Counted from the stretch's first letter, positions 27,069 to 37,306 are shown. The stretch: DNA of 42,431 nt from Holophagae bacterium (GCA_012516935.1 JAAYVZ010000022.1:1-42431), one strand, 5' to 3'. Notes: generated by a model from the sequence alone, not told the origin. Numbers and translations: made by a program.

Positions 27069-28490
27069 CTACTGGCGGGTGATCCGTTCGTACACACTCA
27101 GGTAGGTGCGGGCGGAGGCCGACCACGAGAAGTCACGCGTCATCGCGGTCCGCCGCATGCGTGCTAGCTCCTCCGGGCGGGCGAGCGCCGCTGCGGCGCG
27201 GGCCAACGCATCGACGAGGGCGCCCGGTGTGAGCTCCCGGAAGACGAAGCCGGTGGCGTCGTCGCGGCTCGAGTCGGCGACCGTGTCGGCCAGCCCGCCG
27301 GTGGCGTGGACCACCGGGAGAGTGCCGTAGCGCATGGCGATCATCTGCCCGAGACCGCACGGCTCGTAGTGGGAGGGCATCAGGAAGAGGTCGCTCGCGG
27401 CGTAGATCTGGTGGGCAAGCCGGTTGTCGAAGCGCGTCAGCACGCGCACGTGTGCGGGATGTGCCAGCTCCGCCGCGCGCATTGCCTCCTCGTATCGGCG
27501 CTCGCCGGTACCCAGCACCACGAGGTCGAAGCCCAGCGCCAGGATGTCCTCGAGGGCGGCGACCACGAGGTCGGCGCCCTTCTGCTCGGCGAGACGGGAG
27601 ACCATGCCGCAGAGCGCCCTCCCGCTTCCCGCGATCCCCAGCTCCGCGACCAGCGCCTCCCGGTTGGCGGCCTTGCCGCTGGCGGCGTCGGCGACCCCGT
27701 ACGGGCGAGCGACGAGGGTATCGGTGGAAGGGTCCCACTGCTGCTGATCGAGGCCGTTGAGGATACCGGTGATGAGGTGCTGGCGGCTGCGCAGCACCCC
27801 TTCGAGCTGGCAGCCAAAGGCGGGGGTGAGGATCTCGCGGGCGTAGGTCGGCGATACCGTGGTGATGGCGTCGGCCGCCACCAGTCCGGCCTTGAGGAAG
27901 TTGACCTGCCCGTAGAACTCGAGTCGACTCACCTGGAAATGCTCGCCACCGAGGCCGCAGGCAGCGAGCGTCCAGGGGGGGAACACGCCCTGGTATGCCA
28001 GGTTGTGGATGGTGAAAACCGTGCGCGCCAGCGGCAGCGTCTCCCGCCAACCCGGCTCGAAGGCGAGCAGGAACGGGGCCAGAGCCGCCTGCCAGTCGTG
28101 GGCATGGACGACATCGACGCCGCCGAGCTGGCCGAGGACGGTGAGGGCGGCCCTGGCGAAGAAGGCGAAGCGCACGTGGTTGTCGGGGAAGTCCGCGTCC
28201 GAAAGCCCGTACAGCGCCGGCCGCACGTACAGCACCGGGCAGTCGAGGAGGACGAACCGTACGCCGCGGTGCTCGACGAGGTGCGGCACGGCCCGTAGCC
28301 CGAGCGCCTGGACCTCGGCCAGGGGTTGCCCGGGAACCGGCTCCCGCAGGCTTTCGCGGTGGCCAGGGATGACGACCGTCACCTGGTGGCCGGACTCGGC
28401 CAGCGCCGGGGGTAGTGAGCCGGCGACGTCGGCGAGCCCGCCGGTCTTCGAGAACGGCTCGGCTTCGGAGGCGAGGTGAGCTATACGCAT
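27069..28490 (-). CDS. glgA: Glycogen synthase (GT5)
   Basis: A 473-residue enzyme, close to the usual length, that adds glucosyl units from ADP- or UDP-glucose to alpha-1,4-glucan. The N-terminal KTGGLADV motif has its lysine at residue 15; HAHDWQAALAPFLL, TIHNLAYQGVFP, ITTVSPTYAREI, the ILNGLDQQQWDP segment and the C-terminal HYEPCGLGQMIAMRYGTLPVV (active-site Glu) follow in the expected order. ATG 28490 is chosen because the protein then begins MRIAHLASEAEPFSKTGG; a GGGAGG lies about ten bases upstream. The gene lies 156 bases after galT and has a heptamer repeat array in its upstream region. No glgC or glgB is in the window. Confidence 0.95.
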   Translation of the reverse strand: MRIAHLASEAEPFSKTGGLADVAGSLPPALAESGHQVTVVIPGHRESLREPVPGQPLAEVQALGLRAVPHLVEHRGVRFVLLDCPVLYVRPALYGLSDADFPDNHVRFAFFARAALTVLGQLGGVDVVHAHDWQAALAPFLLAFEPGWRETLPLARTVFTIHNLAYQGVFPPWTLAACGLGGEHFQVSRLEFYGQVNFLKAGLVAADAITTVSPTYAREILTPAFGCQLEGVLRSRQHLITGILNGLDQQQWDPSTDTLVARPYGVADAASGKAANREALVAELGIAGSGRALCGMVSRLAEQKGADLVVAALEDILALGFDLVVLGTGERRYEEAMRAAELAHPAHVRVLTRFDNRLAHQIYAASDLFLMPSHYEPCGLGQMIAMRYGTLPVVHATGGLADTVADSSRDDATGFVFRELTPGALVDALARAAAALARPEELARMRRTAMTRDFSWSASARTYLSVYERITRQ

Positions 28491-28646: not shown

Positions 28647-29678
28647 TTACGGCGCCTCGCGGAGGTAGCGAGCGGCCTCCTCCGGGGGGGTCGGGTTGAT
28701 CGAGTAGCCCGAACCCCACTCGAAGCCGGCGATATGGGTGATGCGGGGCACGAACTCGAGGTGCCAGTGATAGTCGAGCTCGATCGTGGTCCAGTACTCG
28801 GGCAGGCCGGCTCGGGGGTGAGGGCTCGGCGACGTGTGGAGGATGAGGTTGAAAGGTGGGTCGGAGAGCAGTGACCGTACCCGTCCGAGGAAGCTTCTGA
28901 GCACGGCGGCGAGGTCGGCGAGAGTCGGGTCCGACGCGGCCGCGAAGTCGTGCTGGTGGCGCCGAGGAAGCAGCCACGTCTCGAACGGGAAGGAAGCCGC
29001 GAATGGCTCCAGCAACATGAAGTGCTCGCTCTCCCATGCCACCCGCTCGCCCAGTGCCCGTTCCTGGAGGATGAGGTCGCAGAAGATGCAGCGCTCTTTC
29101 CGGCGCCAGTGATCACGCGCGATCTCCAGCTCGCCTTTGACCACGACCGGGACGATCGGCGTGGCGATGAGCTGCGAGTGGGGGTGGTACAGCGACGCGC
29201 CGGCCTCGCGCCCGTGGTTTTTGAAGATGAGGGCGTAGCGGATCCGCGGGTCGCGCCGCAGGTCGGCCAACCGTTCGCGCCACGCCCGCAGCACCAGCTC
29301 GATCTGGCCCACCTCCATGTCGGCCATCGGCCGCATATGCTCGGGGGTCTCGATGATCACCTCGTGGGCGCCGACGCCAGCTACCCGGTCGAAGATACCA
29401 ACGCCCTCGCGGGTGAGCTCGCCCTCCACGCGCAGCGCTGGAAACTTGTTGGCCACGACCCGCACCTGCCAGCCGGGGGCGTTGCGCGGGCGATCCGCCG
29501 GGCCGAAAGCGAGAATCTCCGGTGGGGTGGTTTCCTCGTTGCCCCACTCGAACGGGCAGGCCCCGAGCTCGCCGGGCTCGTCCGGTTCCCGCCGGCGGAA
29601 CTCGTGCGGGCGAAACCGTCGCTCGGTGGCGATGATCGTCCACCGCCTGCGGATCGGGTCGAACCGCAGCTCACTCAT
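28647..29678 (-). CDS. galT: Galactose-1-phosphate uridylyltransferase-like protein
   Basis: A 343-residue HIT-superfamily nucleotidyl transferase that would exchange UMP between UDP-glucose and galactose 1-phosphate. The catalytic HPHSQ occupies residues 165-169, with H167 as the nucleophile. Other landmarks are WTIIATERRFRPHEF, VVANKFPAL, HEVIIETPEHMR, FKNHGREAGASLYHPHSQL and ELDYHWHLEFVPR near the end. The first zinc-binding pair is altered: CPFE (C41, E44) where most relatives have CPFC, though RCIFCDLI later keeps two cysteines. ATG 29678 is the start; no clear ribosome site, but CATACT on the minus strand lies ten bases ahead. Its place between a sugar nucleotidyltransferase and glgA suggests feeding hexose phosphates toward glucan; an ADP/UDP-glucose-specific variant is possible. 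Confidence 0.88.
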   Translation of the reverse strand: MSELRFDPIRRRWTIIATERRFRPHEFRRREPDEPGELGACPFEWGNEETTPPEILAFGPADRPRNAPGWQVRVVANKFPALRVEGELTREGVGIFDRVAGVGAHEVIIETPEHMRPMADMEVGQIELVLRAWRERLADLRRDPRIRYALIFKNHGREAGASLYHPHSQLIATPIVPVVVKGELEIARDHWRRKERCIFCDLILQERALGERVAWESEHFMLLEPFAASFPFETWLLPRRHQHDFAAASDPTLADLAAVLRSFLGRVRSLLSDPPFNLILHTSPSPHPRAGLPEYWTTIELDYHWHLEFVPRITHIAGFEWGSGYSINPTPPEEAARYLREAP

Positions 29679-29786: not shown

Positions 29787-32297
29787 TCATGAGCGGCGGA
29801 TGAGCTTGCCGAGCTCGGCTCGCCGCTGCTGCAGTACCGAACGGGCCGCTTGGACCGACTCGGCCTCGGCGTGCAGGTGGAGCACCGGCGCGACCCGGTC
29901 AGGGCGTAGCAGCACCCACCCATCGTCGCCTATCACCTTGATTCCCTCGAGGTACGAGATCCGTTGTCCCTGCACCGACTCGGCGAAACGCCGCATGACC
30001 TCGCCCTTGCGTTCGAGCGGGCAGGGCACGGTGGTGTGAGCGACAGGTACCGCCGGCGCGTGCGCCGCCACCTCGGTGAGCGGTCGTCCGCCGCGGACCA
30101 GCAGCTCGAGCAGTCGGGCCATGGCGAACATCGCGTCCGGTACGTGGTGGAGCGCCGGAAAGATGAAATCACCTTCACCCGAGGACGCGAAGACCACATC
30201 GCGTCCGCGTGAGGCCTCGGAGAGCGCACGGGGTGCCGACAGGACCTCTTGGATGCGGTGACCGGCGCCCTCGAGCGTCTGGCGGATGGTGGAGGGTGTA
30301 TAGGCCGGCATCACCACCTCGCCAGGTGGCTCACCCGCCGCCACCACGGCTCCCACCATGAGCGCGGCGAGGTCCATGTCGGCCCACACCCGTTTATCGC
30401 GGCTGACGACGATGAAGCGCTCGCCGGAGGGGTAGAGCCAAACTCCGAGATCGGCTTCGAGCGACGCGACGATCGTCGCCAGCCGTTTGGGCGCCAGGGC
30501 GAGGTCGGAGGCGAGCGGACCCTCCCGCATCCCCTCGGTGTGGGCGTTGAGCGTGATGACGTCGCATCCGAGCTCGGCCAACAGTCGCGGCAGCACGACC
30601 ACCGCCGGCGAATGGGCGTAGTCGACGACGAGGCGCAGCTTGCGGGCGCGGATGTCGGCCACCGGCAACACCCTCAAGAATGCTTCGGCGTAGAAATCGA
30701 CGATCCGCGGCTGCTCGAAGATCGAACCGATCTCCTGGTGCGAGGCGCGGCGGAACTCCTCGCGCATGAACACTCTCTCCACCGACTTGGAGAACGAGGT
30801 CGAGATGTCGAGGCCGTGCTCGTCGAAGAAGCGGATCGAGGTCATCCCCCGCACCAGCAGGACCTGCTGGAACGACACCCCGCCCAGCTCCCCGAACCCT
30901 TCGAGCTTGTGGCGCATCACCGGTGTCGGCAGCATTCCGAGGTCGACCATGTTGACGCCGGCCGAGCTGACGCCGCCGAAGAACGCCCGTCGCAGCATCC
31001 GCGAGGCAGGGTGGTCGTCGCGGGTGGAGAGCACCGTCGTGCCGGGCTGCAGCAACGTCGCGTAGGCGGCGCCGAGTCGCGCCGAGACCTCTGGTGTCAG
31101 CTCGAGGTTGGTGAGACCGGTGACCGCCCCCTCCTCGAACGTCGACGTACGCCAGCGCTCGGCGTACACCAGGTTGGAGTGAACCACCGCATGGTCCTCG
31201 ACGACCTTGGCGGGCCAGATCTTGACGTTCTCCTTGACCCGCACCTCCTGGCCGAGCACCGTATCGTCAGCGATGATGGCGCCGGGCTCGACGACGCAGC
31301 CCGCACCGATCTGCACGCGGGCGCCGAGGACGGCGTTCTCGACGCGGGCGCCCTCCTCGACCCGGACGTCCTCCCAGGCGACGGTGCGGCGCAGCTCGGC
31401 CCTGGGGCCAACGCGCGCCCGGGGGCCCAGCACCACGTCCTGCAGGCGGGCGCCGGGTCCGACCACGCACTCGGGCGCGACGACGACGGTTCCCCGCACC
31501 TCGACGCTCGGGTCGAGCTGCGAGTCGCCCTCGAGCCACAACGGCTTGCCGCCGACCTGCGAGAGCTGGCCCGGAGGCACGATGCGCAAGGTGCCGCCGA
31601 AGAAGTCCACGTGGCCGGCCAGGTACGACTCCGGATCGCCGATATCGCGCCAATAGCCGCGCGAGACGTGGCCGAACATCGGCTCGCCGGCCTCCAGCAA
31701 GCGGGGGAAGAGATCGCGCGAGAAGTCATAGCTCTCGGTTCGTGGCACCTGTGCCAGGACGCTGCCCTGGACGACGTAGATGCCGGTGTTGACGGTGTCG
31801 GAGAAGACCTCGCCCCAGGTCGGCTTCTCGAGGAAGCGCTTGACGCGGCCGTCGGTATCGATGATGACGATGCCGAACTGCAGCGGGTTGGGCACGCGCG
31901 TCAGGCCGATGGTCACGGCGGCGCGCTTGGCGCGGTGGAACTCGATGATCGCTCCGAGATCGAAGTCGCAGACGACATCGCCCGAGAGCACGAGGTACTC
32001 GGCGGCAGCCGCTCGGTCGCTGCCGTGGGCCACCGCGCCAGCGGTGCCGTAGTCCTGGTCGGCGTTGAAGTAGTGGAGGCGCATCCCGAGCTTCTCACCG
32101 TCACCGAAGTGGGCGCGGATCTTCTCGGGATCGTAGTAGGTCAAAAGGATGGCCTCGTCCATGCCGAAGCTGCGCAGGTGCACCAGCACGCGTTCGAGGA
32201 TCGGCCGGTTCACCACCGCCAGCATCGGCTTCGGACGGTTGGCGGAGAGCGGCCGGATGCGGGTTCCGAACCCGCCTGCCATGACGATCGGGATCAT
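29787..32297 (-). CDS. Mannose-1-P guanylyltransferase-like / phosphomannomutase-like fusion
   Basis: An 836-residue three-part protein. Residues 1-235 are a nucleotidyltransferase (MAGGFGTRIRPLSANRPKPM, LVLSGDVVCDFDL, FLEKPTWGEVFSDTVNTGIY), predicted to make an NDP-sugar, by analogy GDP-mannose. About residues 245-370 are left-handed beta-helix hexapeptide repeats (VVGPGARLQDVVLGPRARVG). The remaining 460 residues follow the alpha-phosphohexomutase fold (GLTNLELTPEVSARLGAAYA, FGGVSSAGVNMVDLGMLPTPVM, LRLVVDYAHSP). The mutase part has lost its catalytic serine motif: where TASHNP is expected the sequence is VSFQQVLLVRGMTSIRFFD, and the DGDADR metal loop reads LEADLGVWLYPSGER. It is therefore probably regulatory or structural. 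ATG 32297 overlaps the receiver gene stop (ATGA). A glucose-1-phosphate uridylyl/thymidylyl activity is an alternative. Confidence 0.85.
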   Translation of the reverse strand: MIPIVMAGGFGTRIRPLSANRPKPMLAVVNRPILERVLVHLRSFGMDEAILLTYYDPEKIRAHFGDGEKLGMRLHYFNADQDYGTAGAVAHGSDRAAAAEYLVLSGDVVCDFDLGAIIEFHRAKRAAVTIGLTRVPNPLQFGIVIIDTDGRVKRFLEKPTWGEVFSDTVNTGIYVVQGSVLAQVPRTESYDFSRDLFPRLLEAGEPMFGHVSRGYWRDIGDPESYLAGHVDFFGGTLRIVPPGQLSQVGGKPLWLEGDSQLDPSVEVRGTVVVAPECVVGPGARLQDVVLGPRARVGPRAELRRTVAWEDVRVEEGARVENAVLGARVQIGAGCVVEPGAIIADDTVLGQEVRVKENVKIWPAKVVEDHAVVHSNLVYAERWRTSTFEEGAVTGLTNLELTPEVSARLGAAYATLLQPGTTVLSTRDDHPASRMLRRAFFGGVSSAGVNMVDLGMLPTPVMRHKLEGFGELGGVSFQQVLLVRGMTSIRFFDEHGLDISTSFSKSVERVFMREEFRRASHQEIGSIFEQPRIVDFYAEAFLRVLPVADIRARKLRLVVDYAHSPAVVVLPRLLAELGCDVITLNAHTEGMREGPLASDLALAPKRLATIVASLEADLGVWLYPSGERFIVVSRDKRVWADMDLAALMVGAVVAAGEPPGEVVMPAYTPSTIRQTLEGAGHRIQEVLSAPRALSEASRGRDVVFASSGEGDFIFPALHHVPDAMFAMARLLELLVRGGRPLTEVAAHAPAVPVAHTTVPCPLERKGEVMRRFAESVQGQRISYLEGIKVIGDDGWVLLRPDRVAPVLHLHAEAESVQAARSVLQQRRAELGKLIRRS

Positions 32298-32659
32298 GCG
32301 GAGGCCTCCAAGCAGCGCTTGACGGCGAGCTTCAGGTCGGTGAGGTCGGACGACTTGACGACATAGGCGTCGGCCAGCCAGGAGGAGAAATCGTCCTGGT
32401 AGCGGGCGTACGCGGTACAGAGCACGATCGGCAGCTTGGGGTGAGCCGCCTTGACCTCGCGCAGGAGCTGCAGCCCGGAGGCCTCACCGAGGCGGATGTC
32501 GAGGACGATCACGTCGACCCCACCCTGGCCGAGGCGGGCTCGCGCGGAGTCGATACCGGTCGCCGTCGCGACGTCGTAGTCCAGGCGTGCGAACGCCGTG
32601 CGGTAGAGCTCGAGCAGGCCCTCCTCGTCGTCGATGAACAGCACGCACGGTTTCGTCAC
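32294..32659 (-). CDS. Stand-alone response regulator receiver
   Basis: A 121-residue receiver with no output domain. The acidic pair D10/D11 (VLFIDDEEGLLELY), phosphoacceptor D54 in VIVLDIRLGEASGLQLL, T in IVLCTAYA and K in AYVVKSSD are all present. I prefer GTG 32659 over GTG 32665 because GGAGG lies five bases before it and its GTGA overlaps the stop of the histidine kinase gene. Its own stop overlaps the start of the sugar-nucleotide fusion gene. It most likely takes phosphate from the kinase encoded upstream and acts by binding another protein, possibly the fusion protein; the latter is inference from gene order. Confidence 0.9.
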   Translation of the reverse strand: MTKPCVLFIDDEEGLLELYRTAFARLDYDVATATGIDSARARLGQGGVDVIVLDIRLGEASGLQLLREVKAAHPKLPIVLCTAYARYQDDFSSWLADAYVVKSSDLTDLKLAVKRCLEASA

Positions 32660-34056
32660 GACCACCTCCGCAGCAGCAAGGCGAAGCGCACCCAGGGGGC
32701 ATCGATCTGATCGTAGTCTACCTTGCCGCCCATCGCCTCAGCCAGCGCCCGCAGCGAGGCCAGCCCGAGCCCCGAGCTGGACCGCCGCATCGACATCTCG
32801 CCGGAGAACGGGTTACGGGCCAGCTCCGGCTCGAGAGGTGGGCCGTTGTCGGCGATCTGCAGCCTGGCCCACTCGCCCTCCTCGCTCACCGCCGCCTGCA
32901 CCTCACCCCGGTGACCCTGACAGGCGGTCAAGGCGTTGGCCAGCAGCGTCTCGACGCAGCGCTCGCCGATCTCCGGGTTGCCTCTCACCCGCACCTCGCG
33001 GGCCGGTCGGTAGCAGACCAGCCGTACCTGCCGCTTCACCGCCAGTGGCCGGAACCGTTCGACGACGCGCTCGGCCAGCGCTCCCAGGTCCATTTCGCAC
33101 GTGACGGTGCCGTTAGCGCGCCCGGCGAGCCCCTCCGCCAGGCGGGCCACGTGCTCCTCGATCCTCCCGATGGCCTCGGCGATGACCCCGAGCCGACGCA
33201 CCAGCGTCGACGGGTCAGCGGGCGGAGATGCGGCCAGCTCGCGCGCGGTACCGCCGGCGATCGACAAGGGGTTCACGAGCTCGTGCGTGAGCGATCGCGC
33301 GGTGGCGAGAAGGGTGGTGGCGTGCTCGGTCGCGACCCGCCGCTGCTCCTCCTCGCGCAGGCGGCGCAGCAGGCTGGTGCGCTCCACCGCGGCCCGCAGG
33401 ACGTGGGCGAGCGACTCGGCGGCCTCGAGGGTCCCCAGGTACACCGGCGCCGCGGTGACGAAGTTGTCGGCCAGGACGACTCCCCACGGGCCGTCGTCAG
33501 CGAGCAGCGGAATCACCACGAGGGCACGCGAGTCGAGAACCTCCACCCAGTGCCGGACGCACCGCTCGGGGTGGTTGGCGTGGGCGACGAAAGCGCGGCG
33601 CCAGCTGGGACAGGAGTGCGGCGAGGGGAGTGACAGCTCGACCAGCGTGCGCGCGTGACGCTGGCGCTCGACGCCGATCGCGGTGGCATCTGGCGTACCG
33701 ATGAGCGCGAGTGGGCGGACCTGGCGGTGGGAAAGCTCGGCCCAGACCTTGAACGCCTCCTCCCGCGAGCGTGGCCCGACGCCCAGATACCCCCGCAGCT
33801 CGCCGTCCTGAGCGAGCAAGAAGAAGGCGCGGTTGAAGCCCAACCCCTCGCCGGCCGTCAGGGCAGACAGCACGGTCCACGCCGCGACCTCGGGGTCGAC
33901 GGCGCGCTCGAGCGCCTCGCCGACCGCGACGAGGAGGTCCAGCAACCGGCTCGAGCGGTGGCGCCGCAACGGCAGCCCGGAGTCGAGCGCCGTCAGCGTG
34001 GCCCGCCCGCGCTGCGCCCTGCCCAGGCGTCTCGGCGGCGCGCCCTGGTGCGGCAC
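32656..34056 (-). CDS. GAF-like sensor histidine kinase
   Basis: A 466-residue soluble kinase. Residues about 35-225 form a GAF-like sensor (LLDLLVAVGEALE, NRAFFLLAQDGELRGYLGVG, ALVVIPLLADDGPWGVVLADN). The phosphoacceptor is H258 in SLTHELVNPLSIAGG, a variant of the HisKA H box with N-P conserved. The ATPase end has LLANALTACQGH, IADNGPPLEP and SSSGLGLASLRALAEAMGG. GTG 34056 is preceded by GGAGGTAGC. It has a Cys- and His-containing stretch, SPHSCPSWRRAFVAHANH then ERCVRHWVEVL, absent from most GAF kinases I know; a ligand or metal role is conceivable. Translation is coupled to the receiver gene by GTGA. Confidence 0.88.
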   Translation of the reverse strand: MPHQGAPPRRLGRAQRGRATLTALDSGLPLRRHRSSRLLDLLVAVGEALERAVDPEVAAWTVLSALTAGEGLGFNRAFFLLAQDGELRGYLGVGPRSREEAFKVWAELSHRQVRPLALIGTPDATAIGVERQRHARTLVELSLPSPHSCPSWRRAFVAHANHPERCVRHWVEVLDSRALVVIPLLADDGPWGVVLADNFVTAAPVYLGTLEAAESLAHVLRAAVERTSLLRRLREEEQRRVATEHATTLLATARSLTHELVNPLSIAGGTARELAASPPADPSTLVRRLGVIAEAIGRIEEHVARLAEGLAGRANGTVTCEMDLGALAERVVERFRPLAVKRQVRLVCYRPAREVRVRGNPEIGERCVETLLANALTACQGHRGEVQAAVSEEGEWARLQIADNGPPLEPELARNPFSGEMSMRRSSSGLGLASLRALAEAMGGKVDYDQIDAPWVRFALLLRRWS

Positions 34057-34182: not shown

Positions 34183-35223
34183 CTACACCTTCTTCCACCC
34201 CGCCTCGTCGAAAAACCCGAACGCGTGCTCGACCTTCGCGTACAAGGTCGAGCCAGCGGGTAGCAGGTCGCCGGGCATGACCAGTCGCCCGCGCCGGGTC
34301 GTGCCGTGCAGGCGGGCGGTGCCGAGCGTCAAACCGCTCGTGAGGTCGGAGACCGTCAGCGAGCCAAACGGTGGCCAAAGCCCGACCGAGAGACGAATGG
34401 CCCGGCGATCCCCCGTCTCGCCTGCGAGCAGCAGCGTGCTCGGTCCGAAGCTGCGGAGGCGGGAACGGGACGCCAGGACCACCTCCCACCCATCCTCGGC
34501 TGAGCGCAGGGTGCGGACAGGATGGTGCGTCTGGAGGGCTGGTGGCTCGGCTTCGAAAAACGCCTCCCCAACGTCGGCGAAGCCGCGCAGCCAGGTACCG
34601 CGCCAAAACTGCTGCGTGCGGTGGCAGTCGATCGCCGCCCGCTTGCGGCTGAGCTCGGCCTCGGTGAGGCCGAGGATCGTGGCCTCGGGTGACCAGCGCC
34701 TTTGCCCAGGGTCGTGGACGAAGAAGCGAAGATGCCGTGGAGCGTAATCGATTTCGTTCAAAACAAAAGCGATGCAGACGCCGAGAGCGCTGTGGTCCGG
34801 GTGCCGGTCGAGCATCGACGGGCTGACGAGCACGGTGGGCCGGAAGTCGGTAACCTCGCACCGCAGGTCGTCCAGGAGGTGCGTAGCGGCACGCATGAGG
34901 AGCGCGGTGAGCCCCTGGTCGGGGAACGCCAGAAACCTCGCGGCCTTGCCAGGCAGGCCGAGGGCGGCGAGAGCGGCGAGCACCTCGCCGCGTCGGATGG
35001 CGCCGAAGCGAGCTCGGTCGCGGGCCGTGATCCATAGGCTGCGCTCGCTGGCTCGCTGCGCCCAGGGGTTGTTGTCGCCGTCGGTTGCGAACAGGAGGCG
35101 GACGCCGGCACCTGCGGCCAGGGCGTGCTGGAGCAGCCCGGCGCAGGCCAGGCTCTCGTCGTCCGGGTGGGGCAAGACCACGAGCAGCCGGTCGCTGGGG
35201 TCGAGGTCGAGCATGCTCGTCAC
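34183..35223 (-). CDS. PIG-L/LmbE-family deacetylase with extra C-terminal domain
   Basis: A 346-residue protein. The N-terminal 230 residues are a PIG-L deacetylase: the zinc motif LLVVLPHPDDESLACAG, then ATDGDNN, FPDQGLT, and MLDRHPDHSALG, which supplies the third zinc ligand. Relatives remove acetyl groups from N-acetylglucosamine-containing lipids or thiols. The last 110 residues are beta-rich (WEVVLASRSRLRSFGPSTLL, LTVSDLTSGLTLGTARLHGT) and not recognised. GTG 35223 is chosen since its GTGA overlaps the stop of the Ser/Thr kinase gene; a GGAGG lies just three bases upstream. It may act on a surface-glycan intermediate; the substrate is unknown. Confidence 0.85.
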   Translation of the reverse strand: MTSMLDLDPSDRLLVVLPHPDDESLACAGLLQHALAAGAGVRLLFATDGDNNPWAQRASERSLWITARDRARFGAIRRGEVLAALAALGLPGKAARFLAFPDQGLTALLMRAATHLLDDLRCEVTDFRPTVLVSPSMLDRHPDHSALGVCIAFVLNEIDYAPRHLRFFVHDPGQRRWSPEATILGLTEAELSRKRAAIDCHRTQQFWRGTWLRGFADVGEAFFEAEPPALQTHHPVRTLRSAEDGWEVVLASRSRLRSFGPSTLLLAGETGDRRAIRLSVGLWPPFGSLTVSDLTSGLTLGTARLHGTTRRGRLVMPGDLLPAGSTLYAKVEHAFGFFDEAGWKKV

Positions 35224-36083
35224 CCACCTCCACCCGACCTTGGGTCCAGACGCTCACGCACACGCTCCAACTCGTCCTGCACCGCGAAGGCGGTCTGGAT
35301 GCGGGCTGCCGGGTCCTTGGCACAGAGCCCCGAGACCAGCCGCCAAACCTCGTCGGGGAGCGCCACCGGGAGCGTTTCGGGAGCGGGCAGTGGTTGCCGA
35401 GCATGCAGGAGTAGCAGCCGCACCGGCGACGGGTCGTCGAACGGTGGCTGGCCCTCCAGCATCTCGAACAGCATGATCCCGAGGGCGTAAAGGTCGGCGC
35501 GAGCGTCTACTGGGCCCACCGCGGCCTCGGGGGCGGCGTAGCGCGGGCTGCCAATGAACGTTCCGGCCGTGGTGAGGCCGCGCTCGCCGGCGATACGGGC
35601 GATCCCGAAGTCGAGCACCCGGACGCTCCCGTCACGGGAGAGCATCACGTTCTCTGGCTTGAGATCGCGGTGGATGATGCCCTGGGCATGGGCGTGGGCG
35701 AGCGCCGAAGCGACCTCACGGGCGATCCCGAGCCCAACCGGCAGCGGGAGCGGTGCCCGAGCCACCATCACACTCGCCAGGGTGCGGCCGTCGACCAACT
35801 CCATGGCGATGAACAGCCGCCCCTCGTCTTCGCCAGCCTCCAGCACCCGCACGATGGCGGGGTGATGCAGCCGAGCCCCGAGGGCGCCTTCTTGGAGGAA
35901 GCGGACGACGAACGTCGGGTCGGTGAGGCAACGCCGATACGGAACCTTGAGCGCCACCAGCCGACCGTCGGGCCCGGTGGCGCGGTAGGTCCACGCCATC
36001 GCCCCTCGTCCGAGCGGGTCGACGACCGTGTAGCGGCCGATCCGGAACCCGCACGGCAGCTCGCCCGGTGGTGGCTGTGCCAT
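35220..36083 (-). CDS. Single-domain Ser/Thr protein kinase (PknB type)
   Basis: A 287-residue Hanks-type kinase consisting of little more than the catalytic domain. The Gly loop is [12 protein letters not shown], the ATP lysine K46 in VALKVPYR, the alpha-C glutamate near E65, the catalytic loop [12 protein letters not shown] with D140, the metal loop LDFGIAR with D158, and the activation end [10 protein letters not shown]. There is no transmembrane segment or sensor region after residue 280. I favour ATG 36083 because minus-strand TACGAT lies seven bases ahead, a leaderless layout; ATG 36092 is also possible. The gene overlaps that of the PIG-L deacetylase by four bases, so the deacetylase or its pathway may be a target. 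Confidence 0.92.
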
Positions 36084-36090
36084 GTGCCGC

Positions 36091-36096
36091 ATCGTA
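36091..36096 (-). promoter_or_regulatory. Minus-10 element TACGAT, leaderless spacing
   Basis: Minus-strand TACGAT is followed seven bases later by ATG 36083. No ribosome site is seen between them and no convincing minus-35 hexamer upstream. Confidence 0.3.
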
Positions 36097-36127
36097 GCAG
36101 CCACAGCCCGACCTCTGGCCCGGGGGA

Positions 36128-37306
36128 CTACTCCGGGCCGGGTTCGAAAGCTCCGAAGCCGGTGAGGTGCTTGCCCAGCACCAGCGTGTGGATGTCGTGC
36201 GTGCCCTCGTAGGTGAACACCGACTCGAGGTTCATGAGGTGTCGCATGACGGGGTACTCGTTGACGATCCCGTTGGCGCCCAGGATCTCGCGCGCGAGCC
36301 TCGCACACTCACGCGCCATCCAGCACGAGTTGCGTTTGCCCAAGCTGACCTGGACGTGGGTGAGCGTGCCCTCGTCTTTTAGACGGCCGAGGCGCCAGAC
36401 CACGAGCTGCGCCTTCGTGATCTCGTTCGCCATCCAGACCAGCTTTTCCTGGACCATCTGGTGGGCGGCGATCGGCTTGCCACCGAACTGCACCCGGATC
36501 CTGGCGTAGTCGAGGGCGGTGCGAAATACGGCCATGGCGGCGCCGAGGGTGCCCCAGGCGATCCCGTAGCGGGCCTGCGTGAGGCAGGCCAGCGGGGCTT
36601 TGAGGCCGTGCGCCGCCGGCAGCCTTGCCGCGTCCGGCAGCTCCACGTCCTCGAGCACGAGCTGTGAGGTGACGGAGGCCCGGAGCGAGTACTTGCCCTT
36701 GTGCTCGACGACCGAGAAACCTGGAGTTCCACGTTCGACCAAAAAGCCGCGCACCTCGCCCTCGTCGTCCTTGGCCCACACCACCGCGAGGTCGGCCAGG
36801 TTGCCGTTGGTGATCCAGGCCTTCTCGCCGGACAGCACCCAGCCCTCACCGCGGCGGCGGGCGCGGGTGCGCATGCCGGCTGGGTTGGAGCCGAAGTCCG
36901 GCTCGGTGAGGCCGAAACAACCGATGGCGCGCCCCTCGGCGAGCGCGGGTATCCAACGATCTTTCTGCTCGGACGAGCCAAACCGCAGGATCGGGTACAT
37001 CACCAGCGCCGACTGCACGGAGACGAACGAGCGCAGCCCCGAATCGCCGCGCTCGAGCTCCTGCAACACCAGGCCGTAGGCAACCGACGACACGCCGGGG
37101 AGCCCGTAGTCGCTGTACGACGCTCCGAACAGCCCGAGCTCGGCCATCTCGGGGATGAGCTCGCGGGGGAAACGGCCCTCGTACGCCCATTGCTCGATCC
37201 CCGGCAGCACGCGCTCGTCCACCCACCGCCCGACCATGTCGCGCACCGTCTTCTCGTCCTCCGAAAGAAGCTCATCGAGCCGCAGCAGGTCCAGGTGCTC
37301 GGTCAT
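36128..37306 (-). CDS. gcdH: Acyl-CoA dehydrogenase, glutaryl-CoA dehydrogenase type
   Basis: A 392-residue flavoenzyme. FAD-binding motifs GCFGLTEPDFGSNPAGM and WITNGNLADLAVVWA, the substrate-site arginine R92 in GLRSFVSVQSALV, and the catalytic base E367 in FTYEGTHDIHTL match glutaryl-CoA dehydrogenases, which oxidise and decarboxylate glutaryl-CoA to crotonyl-CoA in lysine and tryptophan breakdown. The similarity is strong enough that I prefer this to a generic short-chain acyl-CoA dehydrogenase, but the specificity is inferred. ATG 37306 has GGAGGATGCG upstream. It is the first gene of the long leftward series, 44 bases before the kinase gene, with no obvious functional tie to it. Confidence 0.88.
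   Translation of the reverse strand: MTEHLDLLRLDELLSEDEKTVRDMVGRWVDERVLPGIEQWAYEGRFPRELIPEMAELGLFGASYSDYGLPGVSSVAYGLVLQELERGDSGLRSFVSVQSALVMYPILRFGSSEQKDRWIPALAEGRAIGCFGLTEPDFGSNPAGMRTRARRRGEGWVLSGEKAWITNGNLADLAVVWAKDDEGEVRGFLVERGTPGFSVVEHKGKYSLRASVTSQLVLEDVELPDAARLPAAHGLKAPLACLTQARYGIAWGTLGAAMAVFRTALDYARIRVQFGGKPIAAHQMVQEKLVWMANEITKAQLVVWRLGRLKDEGTLTHVQVSLGKRNSCWMARECARLAREILGANGIVNEYPVMRHLMNLESVFTYEGTHDIHTLVLGKHLTGFGAFEPGPE

Follow-up and report, generated by a model that had tools for sequence, protein, structure and literature searches.

A receiver-only response regulator encoded beside pyrophosphorylase genes in several bacterial phyla: possible two-component control of alpha-glucan synthesis

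Introduction

What does a response regulator without an output domain control when its gene overlaps that of a sugar-nucleotide enzyme? The question is raised by three overlapping genes of an acidobacterial genome, coding for a histidine kinase, a response regulator (RR) and a fusion enzyme (FUS), on a 42,431-nucleotide stretch of DNA that is referred to here, in its full length, as the window. The initial annotation of this DNA had proposed that the phosphorylated receiver might control the enzyme directly, through an inactive mutase domain, and that metabolism would be regulated in this way without transcription. CheY, DivK and Spo0F are receivers without output domain that act by protein contact, and Spo0F passes phosphate on in a relay. 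Single-domain receivers are abundant and, to our knowledge, few have known targets; ADP-glucose pyrophosphorylase (GlgC), on the other side of the question, is the textbook point at which bacteria control glycogen synthesis and is known for its metabolite allostery. As a class, single-domain receivers are described as poorly understood (PMC8995066).

Results

All genes discussed lie on the minus strand of the window. The histidine kinase (32656..34056), RR (32294..32659) and FUS (29787..32297) follow one another in this order, and their coordinates bore out the two overlaps claimed initially, a GTGA shared by the kinase stop and the RR start (32656..32659) and an ATGA shared by the RR stop and the FUS start (32294..32297), the latter being kept in other phyla as well. 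The RR frame has two GTG codons six bases apart, and it is the second that serves as the start giving the GTGA overlap; RR is 121 and FUS 836 amino acids long. The longest open frame of the kinase codes for 466 amino acids (34056-32656), and because homology to its relatives begins only near residue 25-30, its true start may be up to ∼90 nt downstream. Downstream of the three genes are a GalT-like uridylyltransferase of the alpha-glucan cluster (28647..29678) and, as the last cluster gene examined, the glycogen synthase GlgA (27069..28490, start codon approximate), which scored 524.7 bits against a TIGR02095 cut-off of 328.45. Upstream are a PIG-L/LmbE-type deacetylase (34183..35223) and a Ser/Thr kinase. 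These last two genes (34183-36308) share a 4-nt overlap and immediately precede the histidine kinase; of the two, only PIG-L is kept at this place across the family.

The histidine kinase has a GAF-like N-terminal part, an H-box (THELVNP) read off the sequence and a HATPase_c domain over cut-off (42.7 bits). Pfam HisKA remained below cut-off in the window kinase, while GAF, HisKA and HATPase_c were all above it in its relatives. As no clear transmembrane segment was found in the window kinase, it is taken to be soluble. An N-terminal cysteine-containing segment (CPF...CxxC) preceding the GAF-like domain, shared by a group of kinases (L217:6239-7864 and L231:6212-7924), is absent from it.

Analysis of RR upheld the description of a receiver without output domain. 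Response_reg (PF00072) was its sole Pfam match (67 bits, cut-off 30.2), the receiver spans nearly all of the 121 residues and the next gene overlaps the stop codon, leaving no room for an output domain, whereas the residues needed for phosphorylation are intact (acid pair D10/D11, D54, T82 and K102). An alignment of 104 related proteins with 40 other receivers defined a subfamily, for which we coined the name ‘TrrA-like’ in this analysis. Trp94 is invariant in the 104 members as compared with the 40 control receivers, Tyr19, Tyr84, Tyr87, Phe91 and Lys102-Ser103 are nearly so, and the Lys-Ser at 102-103 occupies the place where other receivers carry Lys-Pro. Twelve positions are conserved in the subfamily only; eight of them fall within residues 77-103, seven of these in alpha4-beta5, the usual output face of receivers and their phosphorylation-dependent contact surface. 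The structure model of the window RR was confident (pLDDT 94.5). In the phylogenetic tree, the subfamily formed one clade separate from the control receivers (support 100/99), and RR is, on the basis of these comparisons, a member of a distinct and widespread receiver-only subfamily. Within the clade, the FUS-neighbour label must have changed twice or more to fit the starred branches, indicating that the pairing changed more than once, gains and losses being indistinguishable.

The nearest solved sequence to RR was Thermotoga TrrA (135 bits vs 87 for the next), which carries the subfamily signature SSWAADEYVVKS in the alignment. TrrA is likewise receiver-only with a histidine kinase as partner; that partner, ThkA, is a PAS-linked kinase, unlike the GAF-type kinase of the window. 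The relevant Thermotoga maritima entries (PDB 3a0r, 3a10 and 3a0u) were identified as TrrA/ThkA, TrrA having been crystallised with its kinase ThkA (PMC4034769).

FUS is composed of an NTP_transferase domain (PF00483, 167 bits), a left-handed beta-helix and a degenerate phosphohexomutase-like part (PGM_PMM_I/II). Taking GGxGTRxxP, GD and EKP together with the catalytic motifs as the mark of a nucleotidyltransferase, FUS qualified with all its motifs intact (GGFGTRIRP, SGDVVCDFD, FLEKP and WRDIGDP). It failed as a phosphohexomutase (PGM/PMM), since TASHNP, DGDADR, the sugar loop and RASGTEP are all lost, and with them the catalytic serine and the metal, sugar and phosphate loops. The same losses were found in 23 of 23 aligned FUS proteins from about a dozen phyla, most of them without such an RR alongside. 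FUS remained below the cut-offs for both mannose-1-phosphate guanylyltransferase (NF052502, 266 vs 440 bits) and GlgC (TIGR02091, 121.6 vs 424.9 bits). It shares the NTP_transferase and beta-helix parts with GlgC, and differs from it in the additional mutase-like domain. In the FUS tree, the proteins of the window, of the sister family and of Caldifarciminota formed one clade. The GMPP/mutase-like fusions of Actinomycetota and other phyla have the same domain order and have likewise lost the mutase motifs, but branch more deeply and have no subfamily RR recognised alongside. In several actinomycetes (Streptosporangiaceae, L094-L116) FUS is preceded, at a distance of a few hundred bases, by longer receiver-containing open frames; these look unlike the TrrA-like subfamily. 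An AlphaFold single-chain model of FUS, built from 11 sequences, was poor (mean pLDDT 64.6) and was not used.

The distribution of FUS suggested its probable role. Among the complete genomes of the order, GlgC was found in 4 of 16 genomes with FUS and in 9 of 9 without it (Fisher p = 0.0005, relatedness not corrected), while the window genome has both. Since the two enzymes largely replace each other in the order, FUS is probably an NDP-glucose pyrophosphorylase feeding GlgA, that is, the putative pyrophosphorylase of the glycogen/alpha-glucan cluster, and the pattern suggests that a mutase-like fusion enzyme has replaced ADP-glucose pyrophosphorylase in this order.

The window's family belongs to Acidobacteriota, where its named relatives include Thermoanaerobaculia. 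FUS was present in 12 other genomes of the family (63-75% identity), and in 11 of them kinase and RR stand directly before it; in the twelfth (G318), FUS and RR each reach a contig end. The three-gene order, for which a conservation check had been suggested, is in this sense kept in the family. Kinase and RR are adjacent in every family genome that has them (14 besides the window), and FUS follows where the contig continues, except in G315; in G314 the contig stops inside RR. The order typical of the family is PIG-L, kinase, RR, FUS, GH57 glycosidase, GalT and GlgA, with GH57 missing between FUS and GalT in the window and in G316. Kinase, RR and FUS are all absent from G313 and G321. In the second family of the order, FUS, GH57, GalT and GlgA are present and kinase and RR are missing. 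In G315, kinase and RR are followed by GH57, GalT and GlgA with no pyrophosphorylase adjacent; GlgC is encoded elsewhere in this genome, and FUS was not found in its assembly, which is 82% complete.

A profile search with RR alone in 257 Acidobacteriota genomes yielded further single-domain receivers of the subfamily from many other families, and almost every one of them has a kinase gene upstream. Alpha-glucan genes (GlgC, GlgA, GalT or GH57) lay within 7 kb of 26 of the 27 Acidobacteriota RR loci, as against none of 20 control loci, taken from other receivers of the window's order (Fisher p = 2e-12, relatedness not corrected), a control set that ruled out chance adjacency. In these Acidobacteriota loci the gene directly after RR mostly coded for a nucleotidyltransferase, and all seven that were checked proved to be GlgC over NCBIfam cut-offs. 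Outside Acidobacteriota, 23 of the 147 Caldifarciminota genomes carry RR, as do 150 of 198 from the phylum to which a ‘Deltaproteobacteria’ MAG (G336) belongs; 53 loci from these two phyla had GlgC directly after RR in 26 cases and FUS in ∼10. Over all loci, GlgC directly followed RR in ∼41 and GalT in nine, and FUS or a GMPP-like enzyme did so in the window's family, in Caldifarciminota and in G352. The receiver was in fact commonly found without FUS, which counts in part against the initial coupling of receiver and fusion enzyme: in most phyla GlgC is found instead, and G315 kept kinase and RR and lost FUS.

In the G336 phylum, GlgC immediately follows RR in at least 32 of 198 genomes (coordinates compared by eye). 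For most RR-GlgC pairs there, no kinase was detected inside 1.5 kb, so it is the enzyme and not the kinase that RR stays with. This bears on the alternative that RR serves as a phosphate sink or as an intermediate of a phosphorelay, its phosphate passing by way of a histidine phosphotransfer protein to a remote DNA-binding regulator, with the gene order reflecting co-expression only. Single-domain receivers such as Spo0F work in this manner, and Spo0F is among the structural neighbours of RR; however, RR remains with the enzyme where no kinase is alongside, and neither a phosphotransfer gene nor one for a transcription factor was recognised next to the RR-enzyme pairs examined, whose neighbours were annotated in part. 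We consider a relay role unlikely.

Outside Acidobacteriota the association with alpha-glucan genes was weaker (5 of 13 loci in a mixed sample), and in Zixibacteria, some Caldifarciminota and Methylomirabilota RR adjoins other genes. These loci, together with G315, speak most strongly against a strict pair of RR and pyrophosphorylase. A second alternative leaves the two-component system in the service of the cluster and lets RR act on GalT, GH57, GlgA or the glycogen particle, the pyrophosphorylase being merely its commonest neighbour. RR does precede GH57 or GalT in G315 and in the GalT-type loci, one group of which has the order GlgC, kinase, RR, GalT, and GalT neighbours RR in Deltaproteobacteria, NC10 and Poribacteria too. 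On the other hand, GlgC or FUS directly adjoins RR, or the kinase-RR pair, in most loci, and many of the kinase-free pairs are RR-GlgC or RR-FUS, and this reading seems to us improbable.

Several other observations were made at these loci. In two Zixibacteria loci (L219:5395-5754 and L226:4714-5148) the gene after RR codes for a small protein that looks all-helical, has at most weak family matches and could be another partner, and in two NC10 (Methylomirabilota) loci (L220 and L224) RR lies near a glutamine synthetase gene. No natural RR-GlgC or RR-FUS fusion was recognised among the open frames of the G336-phylum comparison, which was not a systematic search. An 846-aa open frame (G646:C152:1628-2722) passed the glgC cut-off only together with its in-frame neighbour and is possibly a tandem GlgC fusion.

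The 4-nt overlap between RR and FUS, or a GMPP-like enzyme, was found in 18 measured loci, namely 10 of 10 relatives measured in the family, seven in Caldifarciminota, and G352, where the junction is that of RR with a GMPP-like enzyme. Four loci (L277, L278, L291 and L292) had no RR/FUS overlap, and 13 of 33 RR/GlgC junctions overlap or abut. The recurrence of the RR/FUS overlap in the family, Caldifarciminota and G352 indicates more than chance. It might seem to favour the docking of RR on FUS through the inactive mutase domain, as first proposed: the overlap is kept in two phyla, and the domain, being catalytically dead, would be free to act as a regulatory platform. We nevertheless rejected this as the favoured model and regard it as very improbable, because GlgC, the partner of the same RR subfamily, has no such domain, and because the domain is dead in all 23 FUS proteins checked and equally degenerate in those of Actinomycetota and other lineages without such an RR alongside.

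Discussion

The reading that we prefer is that the alpha-glucan cluster has a two-component system of its own, in which RR would regulate the pyrophosphorylase by phosphorylation-dependent protein contact and not via DNA; derived as it is from sequence comparisons, we give this reading an even chance of being correct. According to this scheme, the soluble GAF-type histidine kinase would sense an internal signal and presumably phosphorylate the receiver-only RR, which in its phosphorylated form would regulate, in one direction or the other, the committed step, the formation of NDP-glucose by FUS here and by GlgC in most relatives. Direct regulation is the simplest mechanism, given that RR has no output domain and is often found next to the enzyme with no adjacent kinase. 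As RR pairs with GlgC and FUS alike, the contact, if direct regulation is right, would be expected on the NTP_transferase/beta-helix part common to both and not on the dead mutase domain. Direct binding of RR to the pyrophosphorylase is a reading of gene order and conservation, and conserved adjacency of regulator and enzyme can also reflect co-expression instead of contact.

The constant pairing is that of RR with a pyrophosphorylase. That it recurs across several phyla, with either GlgC or FUS and often kinase-free, supports the general idea of the initial annotation, metabolic control without transcription, while the route through the mutase domain that it had envisaged did not stand. A more specific form of the preferred reading, in which the TrrA-like RRs, of which TrrA was the one solved relative found, would belong to the glycogen pyrophosphorylase as its own allosteric subunit, switched by phosphorylation and serving two enzymes (GlgC and FUS) in several phyla without transcription, is put forward tentatively, as a possibility that we hold to be somewhat more doubtful than probable.

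The targets of CheY, DivK and Spo0F are motor, kinase or relay proteins, in contrast to the biosynthetic enzyme proposed as the target of RR. A precedent may be found in HPr, which regulates E. coli glycogen phosphorylase by direct contact, as stated in a 2024 review on the enzymes of alpha-glucan metabolism (PMC11046441). Like the proposed RR, it is a small phosphorylatable protein in direct contact with a glycogen enzyme; it differs in being a PTS protein and not a two-component receiver, and in acting on a different enzyme, on the degradation side. The accessible part of the same review makes no mention of two-component systems, and no description of two-component control of glycogen enzymes, or of the present system, was found in the open-access literature searched.

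If the proposed regulation is true, a conserved two-component input at the pyrophosphorylase would add a new layer of control to glycogen synthesis, and a function would be assigned to a receiver type, that of TrrA, which is structurally solved and functionally obscure. Two-component signalling would then govern carbon storage in these bacteria without transcription.
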